This document shows positions 3,883 through 18,308 of a stretch of DNA of 37,347 nucleotides, one piece after another. The position numbers and the translations under genes were made by a program. The stretch spans positions 1 through 37,347 of the IMG/VR virus record IMGVR_UViG_3300024054_000033. One strand, given 5' to 3'. Source of the DNA: a virus. The number at the start of each line of letters is the position of its first letter. The first letter of the stretch is position 1. The notes under the pieces were generated by a model. It did no database searches, was not told the origin of the DNA, and worked only from the letters and a program-made list of their open reading frames with translations.

Positions 3883-5482
3883 TTTTTATTTCCAATCTGT
3901 ATTTTTTTGGTTTTTCGTTTATATCACTCACTTTTTTGTCTTTCATAAAGTCTTTCCATCCTGCCTGATGGCTTAACCACAATACAAATTGACTATGAAG
4001 ATCCAGTATAAATGATGGAGTCCAAACAAAAGTGCTATTAGAATTCTTAATACTTTGAAAACAATAAGAAAAATATGTATTTATATAATCTGAAAAACCA
4101 TCAATAGGATCATCATATTCATCAAATCTTCCCATTTCTTTTGTCCTATGATTTTCAATCATTTTATTTGTAAAGTCTATAAACTTTTTATAATTTCTTT
4201 TAAATACCAATTTTCCTTCTTCTTGTCTATCTTTATAGAAAATAAAACCAAATAATTTTCTTACAATCTCAAAAGATTTTTTAGGTGGTAATTCTTTACA
4301 ATAATATTCTGTCAATACAATTTGTTCATCAAGAATACAAAGTTTAAAATAATCTTTTTGTCCATATGTTTTTGAGTTCCATAAAAAGTGTATAAGACAA
4401 TCAAGCTTTTTTGTATGGAGTAGTTTACCTTGACTATTTGATAATGTATTAAAATTATCAATAGCTTTTTCAATAGTTTCAAAGTTAATATTTTCTGACC
4501 ACATTCTATAAGTTAGGGCCAAACATATCATTTTAAATGTTATTGATTTTAGATTTATTCTATGTCTTTTAAATCTTTTATTACCAAGATTATTCCAATA
4601 ATTTAAAAACATTTTAGTTTGTTCTACTTTAGGAACAACATTATTTTCTATCAATATTTCAATCCATTTGTATAATTCTCTATGTACCTCAACATGATCT
4701 ACAAATTGGTATGGTTTTAAGCCAAATGATTTATAACTTACAATCAATCTAGGTTTTACTTTTAGTTTATACTTCATTGGTTTCCTTTCAATAAAAAGAG
4801 TAGTTGCACATGATTTTGAGGCAAAATCATTAGTAACATTTTTTCTCTTTCCGAAGGAAGAGAAATAAATGTTACATATTAGGGTATTATATAGGGTAGT
4901 ATATAGGGTATATATATTAGGTACGGTTTTTTTAATGTTGAAATCATTAGGTTTTTTTACCATTCTACCACCAACTACCCCCCTTTCTACCACCAGCTTC
5001 CCCTCATCTACCACCAGCTTATTACCATCTACCACCAACTTGTTTTGGTCATCTACCACCAGCTTATATAAACCTGGAGGTATTAATATTTGTCTAAACG
5101 GACTTGTTGTTTTTTTCTTGTAATTATTAATTATACTCATTGGAATATTAATAAATTTAGTTTGTAATTTTTCTTCAATTAAGGTTAAAGATTGATGTAC
5201 TGTTTTTTTATTAACTTTAAATTGTTTAGCAAAATCTCTTTCAGTGTAATAACATTTACCTTTTTCCATTACAGATAATTTTATTGATTTTAATATCTTT
5301 AATGTTGTACCTCCTGATTTTGGACAGACTTTTTTGAATTCTTTTTCAATACTTTTTGGATAATAAAATATTGAATCTGGATTGTTTAATTCTTTATTTT
5401 TCCAATATTTAATTATACCATAGTAAATAGTATTTAATTTTTCTTGACTTATTATTTCTTCTTTGTTATCTTCTTTATGCAT
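3875..5482 (-). CDS. Replication initiator protein with embedded origin (lambda O-like)
   Basis: Probable origin-binding initiator, 535 aa. Residues 79-106 form a winged helix-turn-helix (YYTERDFAKQFKVNKKTVHQ). Residues 139-175 are a low-complexity linker with repeats of KLVVD, the translation of DNA iterons on the plus strand. Next comes a linker coded by AT-rich DNA, and then a ~310-residue helical C-terminal region of unknown homology, which in this layout would recruit the helicase or its loader. In lambda, O binds iterons inside its own gene in the same way. ATG 5482 has AAAGGAG upstream and the promoter at 5548-5577 faces it. The length exceeds lambda O (about 300), so an extra C-terminal domain is likely. 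No primase or helicase motif is visible. Confidence 0.7.
   Translation of the reverse strand: MHKEDNKEEIISQEKLNTIYYGIIKYWKNKELNNPDSIFYYPKSIEKEFKKVCPKSGGTTLKILKSIKLSVMEKGKCYYTERDFAKQFKVNKKTVHQSLTLIEEKLQTKFINIPMSIINNYKKKTTSPFRQILIPPGLYKLVVDDQNKLVVDGNKLVVDEGKLVVERGVVGGRMVKKPNDFNIKKTVPNIYTLYTTLYNTLICNIYFSSFGKRKNVTNDFASKSCATTLFIERKPMKYKLKVKPRLIVSYKSFGLKPYQFVDHVEVHRELYKWIEILIENNVVPKVEQTKMFLNYWNNLGNKRFKRHRINLKSITFKMICLALTYRMWSENINFETIEKAIDNFNTLSNSQGKLLHTKKLDCLIHFLWNSKTYGQKDYFKLCILDEQIVLTEYYCKELPPKKSFEIVRKLFGFIFYKDRQEEGKLVFKRNYKKFIDFTNKMIENHRTKEMGRFDEYDDPIDGFSDYINTYFSYCFQSIKNSNSTFVWTPSFILDLHSQFVLWLSHQAGWKDFMKDKKVSDINEKPKKYRLEIKNT
4811..4829. repeat. Perfect 8-bp inverted repeat in the origin
   Basis: TGATTTTG, loop AGG, CAAAATCA. 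It lies beyond the AT-rich tract, on the side away from the iterons, where lambda ori also has a palindrome. It is inside the initiator coding sequence. Confidence 0.6.
4833..4875. repeat. Long imperfect inverted repeat in the origin
   Basis: Two arms of about 20 bases around the loop GAA, starting GTAACATTT and ending AAATGTTAC, with a perfect outer 9 bp and single-base bulges inside. It borders the AT-rich repeats at 4879-4910 and may form a cruciform or bind a protein during initiation. Confidence 0.6.
4879..4960. other. AT-rich tract with three AGGGTA repeats, likely unwinding element
   Basis: Three copies of (T)ATAGGGTA-like sequence lie about 12 bases apart at 4879-4910 (TTAGGGTAT, TATAGGGTA, TATAGGGTA), followed by TATATATTAGG and T-runs. 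Low melting stability directly beside iterons is the usual layout of a duplex unwinding element. It is still translated as part of the initiator. Confidence 0.6.
4964..5065. repeat. Replication iterons: five copies of TCTACCACCA(G/A)CTT
   Basis: Copies start at 4964, 4986, 5007, 5028 and 5052, so spacings are 22, 21, 21 and 24 bases, about two helical turns. Four copies are read in the same frame on the minus strand and give KLVV. The copy at 4964 is read in another frame and gives VVGGRM, yet keeps 13 of 14 bases, so the DNA sequence itself seems to be selected. Together with the AT-rich tract and palindromes this forms a predicted origin spanning 4811-5065. Confidence 0.8.
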
Positions 5483-5504
5483 CGTACAATTCTCCTTTGT
5501 TCAT

Positions 5505-5529
5505 GGGCATGGTCATTGTGATCATGCCC
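5505..5529. repeat. Inverted repeat upstream of the initiator gene
   Basis: GGGCATG and CATGCCC form a perfect 7-bp inverted repeat with an 11-base loop, between the promoter at 5548-5577 and the ribosome site of the initiator gene. In the initiator mRNA it would be a hairpin in the 5' leader; it could instead be an operator. Confidence 0.45.
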
Positions 5530-5547
5530 TTCTTTATTGTGTCGGTA

Positions 5548-5577
5548 AGAGTAGGCTGTATGTATGGTGCTTGTCAA
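5548..5577 (-). promoter_or_regulatory. Leftward promoter for the initiator gene
   Basis: On the minus strand TTGACA (5572-5577) is followed after 18 bases by TACTCT (5548-5553), a weak -10. The -35 is the centre of the near-palindrome GTGCTTGTCAAGTAC (5567-5581; 6 of 7 arm positions pair), which shares CTTGTCAAG with the site at 3868-3882. Transcription would begin near 5541, about 60 bases before the initiator ATG. Confidence 0.5.
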
Positions 5578-5593
5578 GTACAAAAGATATTTG

Positions 5594-5621
5594 TTGACAT
5601 TCTTTTTTATATCTGTATAAT
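5594..5621 (+). promoter_or_regulatory. Perfect-consensus sigma-70 promoter
   Basis: TTGACA (5594-5599), a 16-base spacer, and TATAAT (5616-5621): both boxes match the E. coli consensus exactly. It faces right, away from the initiator gene, and only about 65 bases separate the expected start from a strong terminator. Confidence 0.75.
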
Positions 5622-5627
5622 GGATAG

Positions 5628-5692
5628 TGTTAGTTGTTCCCTACCTCCTAATTAGCCCCTTGGAAGACCGGCATACTTCCAAGGGGTTTTTT
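5628..5692 (+). ncRNA. Predicted ~65-nt small RNA, OOP-like position
   Basis: A perfect promoter at 5594-5621 and an intrinsic terminator at 5656-5692 bracket a transcript too short for a gene. No other rightward transcript exists nearby that would need this terminator. The first ~28 nt are unstructured and include UACCUCC (5642-5648) within ACCUCCUAA, similar to the ACCUCCUUA 3' end of 16S rRNA. It can pair seven bases with the GGAGGUA ribosome sites of the major capsid gene (12709-12715), the gene at 14014 (14000-14006) and the tail tube gene (22919-22925). In lambda, the OOP RNA is likewise transcribed away from O from a promoter just upstream of it. Transcription itself is predicted, not observed. 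Confidence 0.55.
5656..5692 (+). terminator. Strong intrinsic terminator
   Basis: CCCCTTGGAAG pairs perfectly over 11 bp with CTTCCAAGGGG across a nine-base loop, followed by six T on the plus strand. Read leftward there is no T-run, so it acts on the rightward small RNA. Its T-run reaches the stop codon of the convergent gene at 5691-6113. Confidence 0.85.
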
Positions 5693-6113
5693 AGTCCTTC
5701 CAACTATGCATTATATTCTTGTAATATTTCTTAAACATACTTTCAAATTTTTCTAAATTTGTTTTATCTTCCACTAATGGTTTTTCATCATATTCATCTA
5801 TATATTTCTTGATAAGCATCAATATTACTTTATCAAGTTCCCATATTTTTCCTGTTCTTTCTTCCAATATATCTATTATTTTGACATAATCCTTTGGATC
5901 AATTAAGCAGGTTGCTCTTATTAGTTGGAATGGATTGTATTTCCAGTTACTTTGAGGAAATATCTTTTTTAAGTCTTCTTTAGTTACTTTTTGTTTTTGT
6001 GCTAATAGGTGTGCTTCTCTAATAACTTCTCTAACATTTTTTAAAAAAGCTCCTGGTTTATTGAATCTTTCTAATCTTCCCTTTGGAATATAGGTCGTAA
6101 AACTTATTTTCAT
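5691..6113 (-). CDS. Hypothetical protein, 140 aa
   Basis: Unknown function. ATG 6113 is preceded by AAAAAAGGAG. The protein is basic and mostly helical, with no Cys cluster. Visible stretches are an N-terminal strand (MKISFTTYIPKGRLERF), a helix (VREVIREAHLLAQKQK) and a C-terminal helix rich in Lys and Tyr. It is the first leftward gene, divergent from the late operon, and its 3' end meets the terminator of the predicted small RNA. Its place next to the terminase genes hints at an early or regulatory role, without further support. Confidence 0.55.
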   Translation of the reverse strand: MKISFTTYIPKGRLERFNKPGAFLKNVREVIREAHLLAQKQKVTKEDLKKIFPQSNWKYNPFQLIRATCLIDPKDYVKIIDILEERTGKIWELDKVILMLIKKYIDEYDEKPLVEDKTNLEKFESMFKKYYKNIMHSWKD

Positions 6114-6191: not shown

Positions 6192-6704
6192 ATGCCAATA
6201 AAGTATAATTTAAAGAGTGGAAATGGTAAAGCAAAAAGTGCAAGTGATTCTTTAAAAGCTAAATTAGCTCATTATTTATGTTTAGGTTTAAGCATTGATG
6301 ATTCAAGAAAATTATGTAATTGTAATAAAGATAAATTTGAAGAATTAAGACTTGATCCTGAATTTGAGGATTTTATTCAAGAGTGTTCTTTAAAAAATAA
6401 AGAAGAATATCTTGAAGCAATTAAGGGTGCTGCTAAAGGTGGTTATTGGCAAGCAGCAGCATGGTATTTAGAAAGAAAACATTCAGATGAATTTGGTAAA
6501 AAAGATTTAGTACGACATGAGTATGAAATAAAAATAAAAACCTTCCAAAAAATCCTCATTGATGTAATTAATCAAGAATCCCCTGAAATTAGAGCAAGAA
6601 TAATGAAAAGATTAAGAGATTATAAATATACTGGTGAAGGTATTGCTGATAATTCTTTTCAACCAAAACAAATACAACATTTAGAGGTTGATTTTGAGGA
6701 ATAG
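6192..6704 (+). CDS. terS: Terminase small subunit
   Basis: Recognises phage DNA and recruits the large subunit for packaging. The start MPIKYNLK (6192) follows AGGAG at five-base spacing; the frame is open 20 codons further but without a ribosome site. Residues ~20-60 form a helix-turn-helix (LKAKLAHYLCLGLSIDDSRK, then CNCNKDKFEELR). Residues ~85-105 carry KGGYWQAAAWYLERKHSDEF followed by GKKD, the segment typical of many small terminases (AAxWxLERxxPxxWGRR). The C-terminal ~60 residues are helical and could mediate oligomerisation or large-subunit contact. Identification rests on this motif, the length of 170 and the adjacent large subunit. Confidence 0.75.
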   Translation: MPIKYNLKSGNGKAKSASDSLKAKLAHYLCLGLSIDDSRKLCNCNKDKFEELRLDPEFEDFIQECSLKNKEEYLEAIKGAAKGGYWQAAAWYLERKHSDEFGKKDLVRHEYEIKIKTFQKILIDVINQESPEIRARIMKRLRDYKYTGEGIADNSFQPKQIQHLEVDFEE

Positions 6705-6707
6705 CTT

Positions 6708-7190
6708 ATGAGAATAATTCATAATATGGTTTATACTAAGTTTTATAGACATTGGTGTTTAATGAAAAATAGATGTAAATATCCTACTAATGATTCTTAT
6801 TATAGATATGGGGGTAGAGGAATAAAATATGATCCAAGATGGGAAAAATTCATAAATTTTTATAATGATATGTATTTTAAATATGTTTATGCTAAAAAGA
6901 AATATGGAGAGAAATGTTTATCAATAGAAAGATTTGATGTTAATGGTAATTATTGTTTTGAGAATTGTGATTTTATTCCATTAAAAGAACAATATAGTAA
7001 TATGGGAAGACAAAAATGGTTTAGGGCTATTTCTCCTATAGGAATAGAGTATATAGAAAAGAATTTAAAGAAATTTTGTGATAAACATAAATTACATAGA
7101 GGGAATATGATTAAGTGTTTAAATAGAGAAAAATATAGACATAAAATTAGTGGTTGGAAAGTTGAATATATAATGGAGGGGGGTGATTAA
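6708..7190 (+). CDS. HNH-like homing endonuclease
   Basis: A selfish-type endonuclease gene between the terminase subunits. Residues 8-98 match the phage family with the pattern (Y)xxWxxMKxRC, YxxYGGRGI (34-39), W45, F48xxFxxDM (54-55), SIERFDVNGNY and CDFIPLKEQYSN, a treble-clef/HNH-type nuclease. The C-terminal 50 residues (YIEKNLKKFCDKHKLHRGNM and SGWK) look like a NUMOD-type DNA-binding helix found in homing enzymes. It starts three bases after the small subunit stop and overlaps the large subunit GTG, so it is well integrated in the operon. A role in packaging has been shown for HNH proteins beside terminases in HK97-like phages, an alternative to a purely selfish role. Confidence 0.75.
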   Translation: MRIIHNMVYTKFYRHWCLMKNRCKYPTNDSYYRYGGRGIKYDPRWEKFINFYNDMYFKYVYAKKKYGEKCLSIERFDVNGNYCFENCDFIPLKEQYSNMGRQKWFRAISPIGIEYIEKNLKKFCDKHKLHRGNMIKCLNREKYRHKISGWKVEYIMEGGD

Positions 7191-8727
7191 AATACGTCAT
7201 CTTGAATCTGATGTAAAAACATTTGTTAATGTGGAAATATCTGCTGTAGCAGATCAAATTGAGTATGATCCTGCTGAATTAATGTCTAAAAAGTCTGAAA
7301 TTAATATTCAGAAGTTTTTAAAAGATGATCAAGGTAAAATAGTAATAAATGAAGCTGTTCATGATGTAATGCATCAATTTAGAAGAATTGCTCATAAAAA
7401 GGGTAAAAGGAAAATACTGATACTTGGTGCATTTGGTCATGGGAAGACAGAACAAGTATGTATTGGTTTTGTTTTAGAGCAGATAGCTAAAAATCCCAAT
7501 ATATTTTGTAAAATTGTTCATGTTGCAGAAAAAGAAGCAATAAATAGAGTAAGAGCAATTGCAGAATATATTAAAACAGATAAGGATTATCAACAATTTG
7601 CTCCTAATGTAAAACCTACCTCTATTTGGGGTCAAGAAAAATTTATAGTTAAAAGAAAAACCATTTCTCAAAATCCTACTGTAGCTGCATATGGTGTTTT
7701 AGCATCTGGTTTAGGTGGTAGAGCACATTTAATAATATTTGATGATATTAATGATTTAAAATCTGCTGTTATTGAACCTACCACTAGAGAAAACATTGAA
7801 GCAATGATTAAAACTACCTGGAATACAAGATTAATCCCAGGACACTCAGAATGTATTGTTTTGATGAATAGATGGCATGAGAATGACTTTGCTGCTTATG
7901 CAATGAATAATCCAATGTGGGCATGGATGTCAATAGAGGTATCAGAAAATAAAAATCATCTTATTTATAAAGATTGTTTTGATAAAAAGAAAGAATTACC
8001 ACTTTGGACTAAATACACAAAAGAAGATTTAGTTGGTAAACACATTGAAATGGGTGATAGAGATTATAAAAGAGGTTTTGAATTAAAACCTTACTCTGAT
8101 GCTGATAAAACTTTCCCAAATTTTGAAAATTGTTGTAGGTATGGTATAAATCCAGAATTAATACTTGGTGATTTTAGGGATTGGATTTTTGGGGCAGGGA
8201 TAGACTTTGCAGGAACAAAAAGACCAGGAACTATTCTTTTTGTAGGTGCTATGAATAAGAATACTGGTATTAAAATTCCAATAAGACTTTATGCTCTATC
8301 TAATCCATCAGAATTACCAGATAAAATAGTTGAAGTTTGGAAGGATTATGGTTGTTTTTTTAATGCTGAAAATAATGCTGTTCAAGAAGCTTTAATTGAA
8401 ATGTTACAAACCACACTTGATAAATCTGTTTATAGTAGATACAATATTAAACTTGATGCATTTAATACTGGTAAAAATAAGGCTGATCCAATACAAGGTT
8501 TACCTTCTATTCAAAAAGAATTTGAAAAGGGAGAGTGGATATTTTGTTTCCCAAAGAAATATGGATCAGAAGATAATGTTGATGAAAGGGATTTATGGCA
8601 TAGGTTGTATCAGGAATTTAAACATCATCCATTTTACAAAACTACAGATTTTGTAATGTCTGGATGGTTTATGAGGGAGGGATTTAAAACTTATCAAAGA
8701 AATGAACAAAATAGATGGATACATTAA
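7183..8727 (+). CDS. terL: Terminase large subunit
   Basis: ATPase-nuclease motor that pumps DNA into the prohead and cuts it. It starts at GTG 7183 with GGAGGGG upstream, overlapping the preceding stop. Of 514 residues, 82-89 (GAFGHGKT) are the Walker A loop and 183-188 (LIIFDD) the Walker B with catalytic acid; the segment GVLASGLGGRAH (171-182) precedes it as in other terminases. The C-terminal RNase-H-like nuclease begins near residue 337 (GAGIDFAGTK, with Asp341 as a metal ligand). Length is normal for the family. The distant LNRWHxxD-like segment (229-235: NRWHEND) is also typical. Confidence 0.92.
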   Translation: MIKIRHLESDVKTFVNVEISAVADQIEYDPAELMSKKSEINIQKFLKDDQGKIVINEAVHDVMHQFRRIAHKKGKRKILILGAFGHGKTEQVCIGFVLEQIAKNPNIFCKIVHVAEKEAINRVRAIAEYIKTDKDYQQFAPNVKPTSIWGQEKFIVKRKTISQNPTVAAYGVLASGLGGRAHLIIFDDINDLKSAVIEPTTRENIEAMIKTTWNTRLIPGHSECIVLMNRWHENDFAAYAMNNPMWAWMSIEVSENKNHLIYKDCFDKKKELPLWTKYTKEDLVGKHIEMGDRDYKRGFELKPYSDADKTFPNFENCCRYGINPELILGDFRDWIFGAGIDFAGTKRPGTILFVGAMNKNTGIKIPIRLYALSNPSELPDKIVEVWKDYGCFFNAENNAVQEALIEMLQTTLDKSVYSRYNIKLDAFNTGKNKADPIQGLPSIQKEFEKGEWIFCFPKKYGSEDNVDERDLWHRLYQEFKHHPFYKTTDFVMSGWFMREGFKTYQRNEQNRWIH

Positions 8728-15222: not shown

Positions 15223-15363
15223 ATGAGCTTTTATTATTGTAAAGAATGTAAATCTCCTGTTAAGATTAGTAAAGATGGTAAATTTATTAAATCTTGTAAT
15301 CATAAAAGTCCTATAATAGCTGAAATGAGAGCAATAGCAAAAGGACTAGGTAAGGCTCAATAA
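15223..15363 (+). CDS. Very small zinc-ribbon-like protein, 46 aa
   Basis: A 46-residue gene wedged between two structural genes with ATG one base after the upstream stop and its TAA overlapping the next ATG. CKEC (residues 6-9) and SCNH (24-27) make a CxxC...CxH pattern that could bind zinc. The rest is basic with a short C-terminal helix (IIAEMRAIAKGLGK). The GGAG at 15212 provides a ribosome site. Such ribbons occur in small phage regulators, but the function is unknown. Confidence 0.55.
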   Translation: MSFYYCKECKSPVKISKDGKFIKSCNHKSPIIAEMRAIAKGLGKAQ

Positions 15364-16226
15364 TGGCTAGAAGATTAAGAGATTTAATTACTAATGCTTA
15401 TGAAAATGGAAAATATACCTATACTTCTTATCGTAAAGTTCCAGGTGTAGCTTCTACAGCTACTTTTTGGGCTGATTTGTCTACTATGCCTGGAAATCCT
15501 GTTCCTAATTATTATTTGGGTGATGCTCTTGTAGGGACTTATCCTACTGATTGGTATAAAAAAAGTATATGGGATGGTGGTCCAGTTTCCCCAAATAAGA
15601 AATTTATTCATAAAATTTGTTTATTAGGTACTGGTGCTTCTGTTGCTCCTGCTCCATTTATTTTATGTGATTATTTATTATATTATCCAGTTATTGATAT
15701 GGATAGTATGGATGAACAGATTTTTGATAATACTGTACGTTCTTTACCAAGATATACCACTGGTTTTGGAGTAATGGCATTTTTAGTTGCAACAAATCCT
15801 TATACTGGTGGACAATATTTTTATATTAATTATACAAATCATTTGGGTGTTTCTGGTAGAGTAAGTCAATTAGTTCAAACTAATACTGGAACTAATATTT
15901 CAACATTGGTAAATTCTAATACAGGAGCATCAAATAGATTTAATGCTTTTATTCCCCTTCAATATGGTGATATGGGAATTAGGAGTGTTCAATCAATTAC
16001 ATTTCTTGGTCCTAATGGTGGATTAGCAGCATTAGTTTTAGTTAGACCTATTTTAACTATGATGACTAGAGAAACAACAGCATGGGCTGAATTTGATTTT
16101 GTAAAAGATAAACCTAGTTTACCTTTAGTATATGATGGTGCTTATTTAAATTTTTTAGTTTTACCTAGTGCATCATTTTTAAGTGTTCCCATAATAGGTG
16201 AATTTACTTTCATATGGGGGGATTAA
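15363..16226 (+). CDS. Virion decoration/fibre-like protein, short paralogue
   Basis: 287 residues, homologous over the whole length to the ends of the 693-residue protein that follows. Shared markers are NPVPNYYLGDAL near the N-terminus (partner VPCQYLHGN), GPVSPNKKFIHKI (partner DVSPDTKHLV), LPLQYGDMGIRSVQSITFLG near residue 200, and a C-terminal KPSLPLVYDGAYLNFLVLPS. The composition is beta-rich. It lacks the inserted beta-sandwich domains of its neighbour, so it looks like the base or anchor module. Position between capsid and connector genes suggests attachment to the head, but a neck whisker is also possible. Confidence 0.55.
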   Translation: MARRLRDLITNAYENGKYTYTSYRKVPGVASTATFWADLSTMPGNPVPNYYLGDALVGTYPTDWYKKSIWDGGPVSPNKKFIHKICLLGTGASVAPAPFILCDYLLYYPVIDMDSMDEQIFDNTVRSLPRYTTGFGVMAFLVATNPYTGGQYFYINYTNHLGVSGRVSQLVQTNTGTNISTLVNSNTGASNRFNAFIPLQYGDMGIRSVQSITFLGPNGGLAALVLVRPILTMMTRETTAWAEFDFVKDKPSLPLVYDGAYLNFLVLPSASFLSVPIIGEFTFIWGD

Positions 16227-18308
16227 ATGGGATTTTCTAGTTTTGATGACTTTTTAAATGAAGTATCTTCAAATGGAAAATTTTGGAGACAAGATTTTTT
16301 TAAATTATATGCTGGTGGTACAGCAGTAGCAGGTAATTGGTATGATTTGACACAAGGAAATGGTGTTCCATGTCAATATTTACATGGAAATATGGTACAA
16401 AATTATGATTTTGTTACTTCTCAATATCCTTGGGTAGTAGGTTCTGCTAATTGGGCATATACTTCTGCTACTCATTTAATGACTAGAACTGCAAGTGCTG
16501 ATGTTAGTACATTATCTCAAACATTGAGATTAAAACGTGGTGCTTATTATTATTTGACATATGTATTAACAAGATCAGCAGGATCTATTACACCTTCTTT
16601 GGGAGGGACGAATGGTACTACTAGAAGTTCTTCTGCTACTTTTCGTGAAATGATTCAATGTGGTTCATCTAATAAAGATATTATATTTACACCAGATGCA
16701 ACTTTTGCAGGTACAGTAGATTTAGTTTCTGTTCAACAAATAATGGATTTTGTTCCTTATAATGATTTAAATGAAGGTGCTTTATATCATGGTCCTGATG
16801 TTTCTCCAGATACAAAACATTTAGTTAATTTTGGTGCTTGGGCTAACTTTTCTACAGGTCTTCCTGCTGTTTTATTACTTGCTGATGTTTTAGGTGTTTA
16901 TCCAAGAATACCTACTAATAGTGCATTACAACAAGAATTAGCTTGTGCTGGTCCTTATCAAGCAGAAGGAACTAAATATTTTGGTACAACTGTTTTTAAT
17001 TGTCAAAGTGCTTTAAATGAAGAAGTAATTACAAACGTAACATCTACATTAGTTGTAAAATCTACTGAAGGTGTTACTGGTGCTAGTGCTAATGGAAGTT
17101 GTTGTAAATTAGCTATGGCTGCTGGTTTTACTACAGGGAAAATGGCAGATAAAGTTGTAGCTATTGATATTAGAAGATCACAATTTGTTTATATATGGCT
17201 TAGATCTTCTATTAATATGAATTCTGGTGATTTAGCTTTCTGTACTGATGAACATGCAGCTTTAGCTTCATCACAAGATACTAATATTAATACTGCATTA
17301 ACAGCAAATACATGGACTAGAGTTAAGATTGATGTTTCTAGTGTAGCTAGAACAGATTTAGATACAGTTATCTCTATTGGTTTTAAAGCTATAAATAATA
17401 AAGCTCAAGCTTATAATTTGTATATTGATGATATTATTTCAGTTAGAGATGATCCATGTATTTATAATGGATCTTTTACTGGTGCTGCAACTGGATGGAC
17501 TTTAGGTAGTAATTGGGCATATAGATCTAATGATATTGAAAGAACTGCAAGTGCTGATGGTGCTCAAGCATATCAAGATTTATTACCTGTAGTTCAAAAA
17601 TGTCCTTATTCTGTTACATACACTATTTCAAATAGAAGTGCTGGTGGTGTTACTGTTTCTTTAGGTGGTACTAGTGGAACACAAAGAACTGCTGATGGAA
17701 CATATACAGAAACAATTGTTTGTGGAACAACTAATTATACTTTAGCATTTACACCAGATTCTACATTTAATGGAAGAATTGATGATGTTTATTGTTTTCC
17801 ATTAACTCCTAGATGTGATGATACTGGTGTTGGAGTAAGAATGATGTATGTATTAGATAATGCATTAGGTAATGGTGCTAATGCTGCTAATACTACTATA
17901 CAATATACTAATCAATCTGGTGTAGAAAGAAGACAATTAGGTGGTACTGTTGTTAATACAGCAAGTGATGTAGTTGCTCATGTAATGCATTCTGGTGTTG
18001 CTGCTGGTAAATATGCTCCTTTTCTACCATTGCAAGCTGGTGATAGTGGAATTAGAAGTGTTCAATCATTTCAATTTAGTGCTGCTCAAGCTACTGCTGA
18101 TGCTGCATGTAATTTATTAGTAATGAAACCTATTGCTTCAATACCAATTACTACTGCCTATGTTGCTGCTGAAAGAGATTTATTAAATCAATTACCAAGT
18201 TTACCTAAAATTAGAGATGGTGCTTGTTTAATGCTTTTTATATTTGTTGGTGGTGTTATTGCTGGTGGTTCACAATTTCAAGGGTATATTGACGTAGCAT
18301 GGGGATAA
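16227..18308 (+). CDS. Large decoration/fibre-like protein with duplicated beta-sandwich domains
   Basis: 693 residues. The N- and C-terminal parts match the 287-residue neighbour. Between them are two similar domains: residues ~52-170 (NYDFVTSQYPWVVGSANWAY to FTPDATFAGTVDLVSV) and ~412-525 (GSFTGAATGWTLGSNWAY to FTPDSTFNGRIDDVYC). Each has TASAD, SLGGTxGTxR and a Cys-Gly before FTPD, and resembles carbohydrate-binding-type jelly rolls. Residues ~270-410 form a third beta-sandwich (TNVTSTLVVKSTEGV to YIDDIISVRD). Surface adhesion or glycan binding is inferred. The gene begins at the stop of its paralogue without a gap, so coupled translation is likely. Confidence 0.6.
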   Translation: MGFSSFDDFLNEVSSNGKFWRQDFFKLYAGGTAVAGNWYDLTQGNGVPCQYLHGNMVQNYDFVTSQYPWVVGSANWAYTSATHLMTRTASADVSTLSQTLRLKRGAYYYLTYVLTRSAGSITPSLGGTNGTTRSSSATFREMIQCGSSNKDIIFTPDATFAGTVDLVSVQQIMDFVPYNDLNEGALYHGPDVSPDTKHLVNFGAWANFSTGLPAVLLLADVLGVYPRIPTNSALQQELACAGPYQAEGTKYFGTTVFNCQSALNEEVITNVTSTLVVKSTEGVTGASANGSCCKLAMAAGFTTGKMADKVVAIDIRRSQFVYIWLRSSINMNSGDLAFCTDEHAALASSQDTNINTALTANTWTRVKIDVSSVARTDLDTVISIGFKAINNKAQAYNLYIDDIISVRDDPCIYNGSFTGAATGWTLGSNWAYRSNDIERTASADGAQAYQDLLPVVQKCPYSVTYTISNRSAGGVTVSLGGTSGTQRTADGTYTETIVCGTTNYTLAFTPDSTFNGRIDDVYCFPLTPRCDDTGVGVRMMYVLDNALGNGANAANTTIQYTNQSGVERRQLGGTVVNTASDVVAHVMHSGVAAGKYAPFLPLQAGDSGIRSVQSFQFSAAQATADAACNLLVMKPIASIPITTAYVAAERDLLNQLPSLPKIRDGACLMLFIFVGGVIAGGSQFQGYIDVAWG

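Follow-up and report, generated by a model that had tools for sequence, protein, structure and literature searches.

The OOP RNA of phage lambda begins upstream of O and reads away from it, and the lambda origin lies inside O. The LhrC-type sRNAs of Listeria are CU-rich and bind SD sequences. OOP has been described as overlapping cII by 52 bases (PMC5869508), and a lambda study holds, in the account given there, that pO acts by convergent transcription and not by the OOP RNA (PMC3985674). Bipartite pairing has been reported for RNAII of plasmid pMV158, and the same source places YUNR-type loops in plasmid antisense RNAs (PMC4485353). The predicted short RNA that we describe here combines an OOP-like layout with an RNAII-like anatomy in an uncharacterised phage family. 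A literature search found no report of such a short RNA in this family, and a scan of the window with the Rfam covariance models gave no match at the gathering score.

The window, as we call the whole 37-kb stretch of IMG/VR DNA that was analysed (37,347 nucleotides), comes from a tailed phage with rightward portal, protease, HK97-type capsid, terminase and tail genes; leftward early genes occupy its left part. TerL and portal searches yielded about 60 loci (given L numbers here), and the gene order common to the relatives is a leftward initiator-like gene, an intergenic region, the leftward gene m140 and then rightward TerS, TerL and portal. For the intergenic comparison, 24 non-redundant phages, the window among them, were compared left of the m140 stop. 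Searches by alignment of TerL, portal and m140 yielded as closer relatives only L002/L003/L049, which are the same phage, L050, whose terminase is 73% identical to that of the window, and L043; the promoter region of the window can be aligned with that of L004 though the proteins are only about 50% identical. Against annotated phages, blastn with the region gave no match and tblastn with the portal returned remote portals only, and a further scan for the L035/L036 branch found no additional member containing the region. A TerL scan of genome contigs found no relative, so that neither a host nor a host 16S sequence was at hand for comparison.

Elsewhere in the window, an HNH endonuclease gene at 6713-7197, between TerS and TerL, is missing from L002 and L003, which otherwise share more than 99.6% DNA identity with the window and have a clean empty site; the alignment marks the gene as a recent homing-type insertion. 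The leftward gene at 1753-1986 encodes a small Arc-like repressor (PHROG 582, E 7e-6), a possible regulator of early promoters. Adjacent structural genes at 15363-18308 have a sequence stretch in common, 18019-18077 matching at 78% the part of L002 equivalent to window positions 15946-16004, and this stretch reads as a duplicated tail or fibre segment.

The features of the locus are collected in Table 1. The perfect TTGACA-16-TATAAT promoter claimed in the preliminary description was found, with the -35 box at 5594-5599, a 16-nt spacer and the -10 box at 5616-5621, and its agreement with the consensus at 12 of 12 positions is the sole perfect match within the first 12 kb. Its score of 13.1 is the maximum of the window on both strands; the next plus-strand promoter scores 10.4, and the aligned promoter of L004/L036 and L035 scores 9.8-10.9. 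About 35 bases lie between the likely RNA start and the terminator, which has the 11-bp stem (CCCCTTGGAAG / CTTCCAAGGGG at 5656-5666 / 5676-5686) and the six T (5687-5692) ascribed to it, the T-run overlapping the stop codon of m140 by two bases only. The positions of promoter and terminator predict an RNA of about 65-69 nt, in line with the earlier estimate of about 65 bases, which would fold with -22.5 kcal/mol and have a single-stranded 5' tail. Within this tail the expected ACCUCC segment was located, with a mean unpaired probability of 0.75 by RNA folding, and ACCTCCTAA, beginning at 5643, occurs in a single copy in the window. The promoter and the terminator are far beyond chance and are conserved.

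Table 1. Coordinates of the features at the initiator-m140 locus of the window.
Feature	Position	Strand	Basis or remark
Replication-initiator-like gene, 535 aa, N-terminal winged helix	3875..5482	-	family matches, model
Iteron-like repeats TCTACCACCARCTT, ~21-24 bp apart, inside the initiator gene	4960..5067	.	repeat search
Second short rightward unit, predicted RNA from ~5479	5444..5536	+	promoter and hairpin; layout that of the wider family
Leftward promoter TTGACA-18-TACTCT, weak -10, reading into the initiator gene	5548..5577	-	same arrangement in L035, L036, L004
Sigma-70-type promoter of the short RNA, TTGACA-16-TATAAT	5594..5621	+	sequence match; alignable with L004/L036 and L035
Predicted short RNA, ~65-69 nt, start inferred at ~5626-5629	5628..5695	+	promoter and terminator positions
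Unpaired ACCUCC motif; ACCUCCUAA at 5643-5651	5643..5648	+	folding; recurrence in relatives
Intrinsic terminator, 11-bp stem, 9-nt loop, six T	5656..5692	+	equivalent hairpin in all 24 phages
m140, conserved 140-aa gene, upstream of and co-oriented with the initiator gene	5691..6113	-	homologues in all relatives compared

A terminator-type hairpin stands at the equivalent spot in 24 of the 24 phages. When both strands were searched symmetrically, the rightward reading gave the more stable hairpin in 23 of 24 loci, and the stems of many relatives hold G-U pairs that would be A-C on the opposite strand; judged from these sequences, the hairpin is selected on the rightward strand. Where enough sequence was available, a rightward promoter scoring at least 9.8 is present in 17 of 20 loci, while dinucleotide shuffles predict 1.1. 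Of 22 phages, 12 (0.5 expected) have CCTCC, whose complementary strand reads as an SD, no more than 20 nt from the 5' side of the hairpin; the counts of promoter, hairpin and CCTCC are not independent, the phages being related, though the stems around the motif are completely changed. An apical loop UUGGUC is kept in the rightward hairpins of L011, L014, L017, L020, L026, L029, L034, L037 and L056, with varying stems, and is a candidate kissing loop; it is absent from the window hairpin, whose loop is ACCGGCAUA.

To the right of the hairpin a strong leftward promoter, often TTGACA-16-TATAAT, is found in 18 of 24 loci (0.3 expected), so the two predicted transcripts overlap in most relatives. 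The start of the rightward RNA falls between -26 and +6 nt of the initiator start codon in the nine loci measured outside the window's clade, L043 included. So placed, the RNA would in most relatives run antisense to the entire initiator leader and ribosome site, as a counter-transcribed RNA. In L043 its tail is complementary to the translation start of the initiator in cis.

The leftward gene is an O-like replication initiator, as indicated by the family matches of the relatives, the iteron-like repeats and the winged helix. The protein of the window by itself gave weak matches only. Within the family, 8 of 13 members match HTH_36 and 7 of 13 match DnaD_N, with values of 1e-7 for HTH_36, 9e-6 for DnaD_N and 0.013 for Phage_rep_O, and several members match PHROGs of replication initiation or O-like proteins. 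The N terminus of the structure model forms a winged helix, with winged-helix neighbours at weak E-values. The gene is preceded by the SD AAAGGAG at 5492-5498. Repeats of about 20-22 bp, each phage having its own repeat sequence, occupy the same place in the initiator linker of the window, L035, L036 and L043; two or three repeat copies were seen in the initiator genes of some other relatives, and none in those of L011 and L038. An A+T-rich stretch (~4870-4950) adjoins the repeats in the window, and the two together are the probable replication origin, about 530 bp from the short-RNA promoter. For m140 there was no Pfam match of weight and no fold match, the model being of low confidence; its identification as a CopG-type ribbon-helix-helix protein was not confirmed by the Pfam, PDB sequence or fold searches.

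The window, L035, L036 and L004 have a divergent layout, in which the leftward promoter pairs a perfect TTGACA with a poor -10. In the window its -35 box is 16 bp from the rightward -35 box, and this back-to-back pair is kept in L035, L036 and L004. The predicted RNA of this clade, 66-76 nt long, does not overlap the initiator start, and that of the window begins 146 nt from the start codon. In L035 and L036, the two relatives nearest to the window in the promoter, the tail fits the ribosome site of the initiator better than that of any other gene. The tail of L036, CCUUUCCCACAA, is complementary to this site without a mismatch over 12 nt (rank 1 of 21 genes, 0 of 2000 shuffles), and the L035 tail matches it over 10 bp (rank 1 of 23 genes, 21 of 2000 shuffles), two matches that amount to nearly one case given how closely related L035 and L036 are (TerL 83% identical). 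Beside the shared core, the two phages would differ by a compensatory base pair, C-G in the one (L036) and A-U in the other (L035). Further, the terminator loop CUUAUCC of L036/L004 matches GGAUAAG adjoining the ribosome site (127 of 5000 shuffles). By these matches, no other target of the homologous RNA in L035/L036 is as well supported as the initiator ribosome site. The L036 initiator mRNA itself (6703-6754) has an 8-bp stem, CACUUAGC/GCUAAGUG, with the start codon in the 3' arm and the ribosome site in the loop; the stem is also present in L035, where an A-U pair has become G-U.

In the window, the tail forms only 5 bp with the initiator RBS (rank 22 of 39, 770 of 2000 shuffles), and the RNA as a whole shows only weak or gapped pairing with the initiator leader. 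The window has a second short rightward unit, with the promoter TTGACT-17-TGTTATCTT at 5444-5472 (score 9.6, weaker than the promoter at 5594-5621) and an 11-bp terminator-like hairpin at 5505-5529 followed by TTCTTTATT, with a value of -16.8 read as the plus strand and -12.7 read as the minus strand. Its predicted RNA of about 57 nt would be antisense to the initiator start codon and SD. The theme of the family, a rightward RNA against the initiator start, is thus represented in the window by this predicted unit. The RNA at 5628, for its part, has no such match to the initiator, whose site the second unit covers, and no particular pairing partner emerged for it.

The preliminary description had proposed a mimic of the 16S 3' end, in which UACCUCC pairs with the SDs of the capsid, decoration and tail-tube genes and restrains late translation early in infection or in lysogeny. 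As it stated, the capsid (12709), decoration (14000) and tail tube (22919) genes have GGAGGTA in their ribosome sites, and these make up three of its four plus-strand copies; the tail matches exactly these late start regions over 7 bp (-10 kcal/mol each), its ACCUCC is predicted to be unpaired, and CCTCC beside the hairpin recurs in the relatives. However, when the tail was compared with 38 start regions, a 9-bp match at another gene beat the three late genes. Of the composition-matched shuffles of the tail, 44% reached the best helix observed, 26% the mean of the top five and 5% the mean over all regions. The tail is thus complementary to start regions to a degree near chance, in keeping with the caution given with the proposal, that a CU-rich run may match strong ribosome sites by chance. 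Nor do the relatives keep the pairing: their capsid, decoration and tube ribosome sites are mostly GGAGGA, not GGAGGTA. In the RNA segment, L004/L036 carry CUACCUCG and L050 has AACCTCC instead of TACCTCC; since L050 has kept the capsid GGAGGTA, RNA segment and capsid site do not co-vary. A generic anti-SD of 6-7 bp is moreover not selective, and abundant virion proteins are expected to have strong SDs anyway. A restraint of the late structural genes is in our judgement very unlikely: what chiefly speaks for it is the recurrent ACCUCC, which may just as well be the complement of SD-like sequences in the leftward leader. Likewise, we would give little credence to the idea that the unpaired ACCUCC imitates the 16S rRNA 3' end as a general brake on strong SDs, of phage or host, during replication.

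It is also highly doubtful that the unit is a late leader like pR'-tR' of lambda or that of phage 21, with constitutive transcription halted nearby until an antiterminator lets it into the late operon from TerS onward. A perfect promoter with its terminator does lie upstream of the terminase and virion genes in the correct orientation, but the opposite-strand 140-aa gene intervenes, no Q-like protein was found among the proteins scanned, and a strong promoter stands directly before TerS in most, indeed nearly all, relatives. With a promoter of its own, TerS does not need read-through from the short-RNA promoter, and the sole-promoter arrangement of a pR'-tR' leader is contradicted by the conservation of that promoter. 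The purine motif AAGGAGGU, close to where the leftward mRNA begins, could instead be a leader-peptide SD or a STAB-SD-type stabiliser, with ACCUCC merely its complement. In most relatives the leftward mRNA would start just right of the hairpin with AAGGAGGU next, and in a few a start codon comes 5-12 nt after it. Such a role is improbable all the same: in about two thirds a start codon at a suitable place is missing, so that a leader-peptide SD on the leftward strand was rejected; the hairpin is selected on the opposite strand; and the leftward promoter of the window lies left of the motif, so that its mRNA would not contain it. By analogy with lambda pO, a serious rival, though still an unlikely one, is that the promoter is what counts and the terminated RNA is a by-product: transcription next to the initiator promoter and origin, or directed toward them, would tune leftward transcription or the activation of the origin. 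The spacing of the two -35 boxes, the retention of the pair in L035/L036/L004, the proximity of the iteron-like origin and the role that PMC3985674, in its account of pO, ascribes to convergent transcription are all consistent with this. It would leave unexplained the selection of the hairpin on the rightward strand, the recurrence of CCTCC and the 10-12-bp matches of L035/L036, and divergent promoters do not collide.

The explanation that we favour, and hold to be somewhat better than an even bet, is that the short RNA, constitutively promoted and of the antisense type, controls the initiator by base-pairing to its mRNA, either in cis or in trans. It draws on what can be read from the DNA itself: promoter, terminator, synteny, rightward-strand hairpin, L035/L036 complementarity and the identity of the initiator. 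The position next to the initiator gene and the cis overlap in relatives argue for a dedicated target. We infer that the RNA is produced, that it pairs and that initiator synthesis is lowered as a result: a rightward RNA from the interval between m140 and the O-like initiator gene would limit initiator expression by base-pairing with the leader or the ribosome site of the initiator mRNA. In most relatives it would act in cis, being transcribed across the initiator leader. In the window's clade the promoter would have moved, leaving the RNA divergent from the initiator, and in L035/L036/L004 the 5' tail would let the RNA act in trans. In the window it would be perfectly complementary in cis to any read-through mRNA from m140 into the initiator gene, an mRNA that we assume, and its ACCUCC tail could cover SDs. 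Against this control role stand, in the window, the 5-bp initiator match, the 146-nt distance, the second unit already lying over that RBS and the lack of a UUGGUC loop.

Should the control of the initiator by short RNAs be confirmed, an uncultured family of tailed phages would control its replication initiator by counter-transcribed RNAs, as plasmids do. One branch would have shifted from a cis-antisense to a divergent RNA, with L035/L036 keeping a 10-12-bp match to the initiator site. The family would then offer a natural series for how cis-antisense RNAs become trans-acting, and would suggest wider roles for OOP-like RNAs.

With respect to the known systems, the short RNA resembles the LhrC type in having a predicted unpaired C-rich segment able to cover SD sequences; it differs in that no selective target was found in the window. 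The RNA of the wider family shares with the plasmid copy-number RNAs of the CopA and RNAI type its antisense relation to the initiator leader and the YUNR-type loop UUGGUC, whereas the loop of the window is without this motif. The likeness to RNAII of pMV158 (copG-repB) extends further. In both cases a short RNA lies between the initiator gene and a co-oriented upstream gene; the RNA of the window would consist of a single-stranded, pyrimidine-rich 5' tail and a terminator hairpin, at about 50-70 nt; the tail is complementary to the initiator translation start in L035/L036/L004/L043; and L036/L004, whose terminator loop matches as well, parallel the bipartite pairing that has been reported for RNAII (PMC4485353). 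Unlike pMV158, however, this is a phage and not a plasmid, m140 is without a CopG-like Pfam or fold match, the RNA of the window's clade is divergent and does not overlap the initiator start, and the tail of the window itself, as the ranking above showed, hardly matches that start.

The OOP-like layout claimed at the outset was borne out, as the predicted RNA has its start upstream of the O-like initiator, points away from that gene and stops at the 3' end of m140. It departs from lambda OOP in that only the T-run touches the m140 stop codon, that m140 is without a match to CII, and that the L035/L036 RNAs match the initiator ribosome site, whereas OOP is not reported to match that of O. As in pO-oop-tO of lambda, the start lies between the initiator gene and a co-oriented upstream gene with the terminator at the 3' end of the latter, the length is similar, and the origin iterons are within the initiator gene. 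Given an O-like initiator, iterons inside its gene and this start position, the comparison with OOP is apt.
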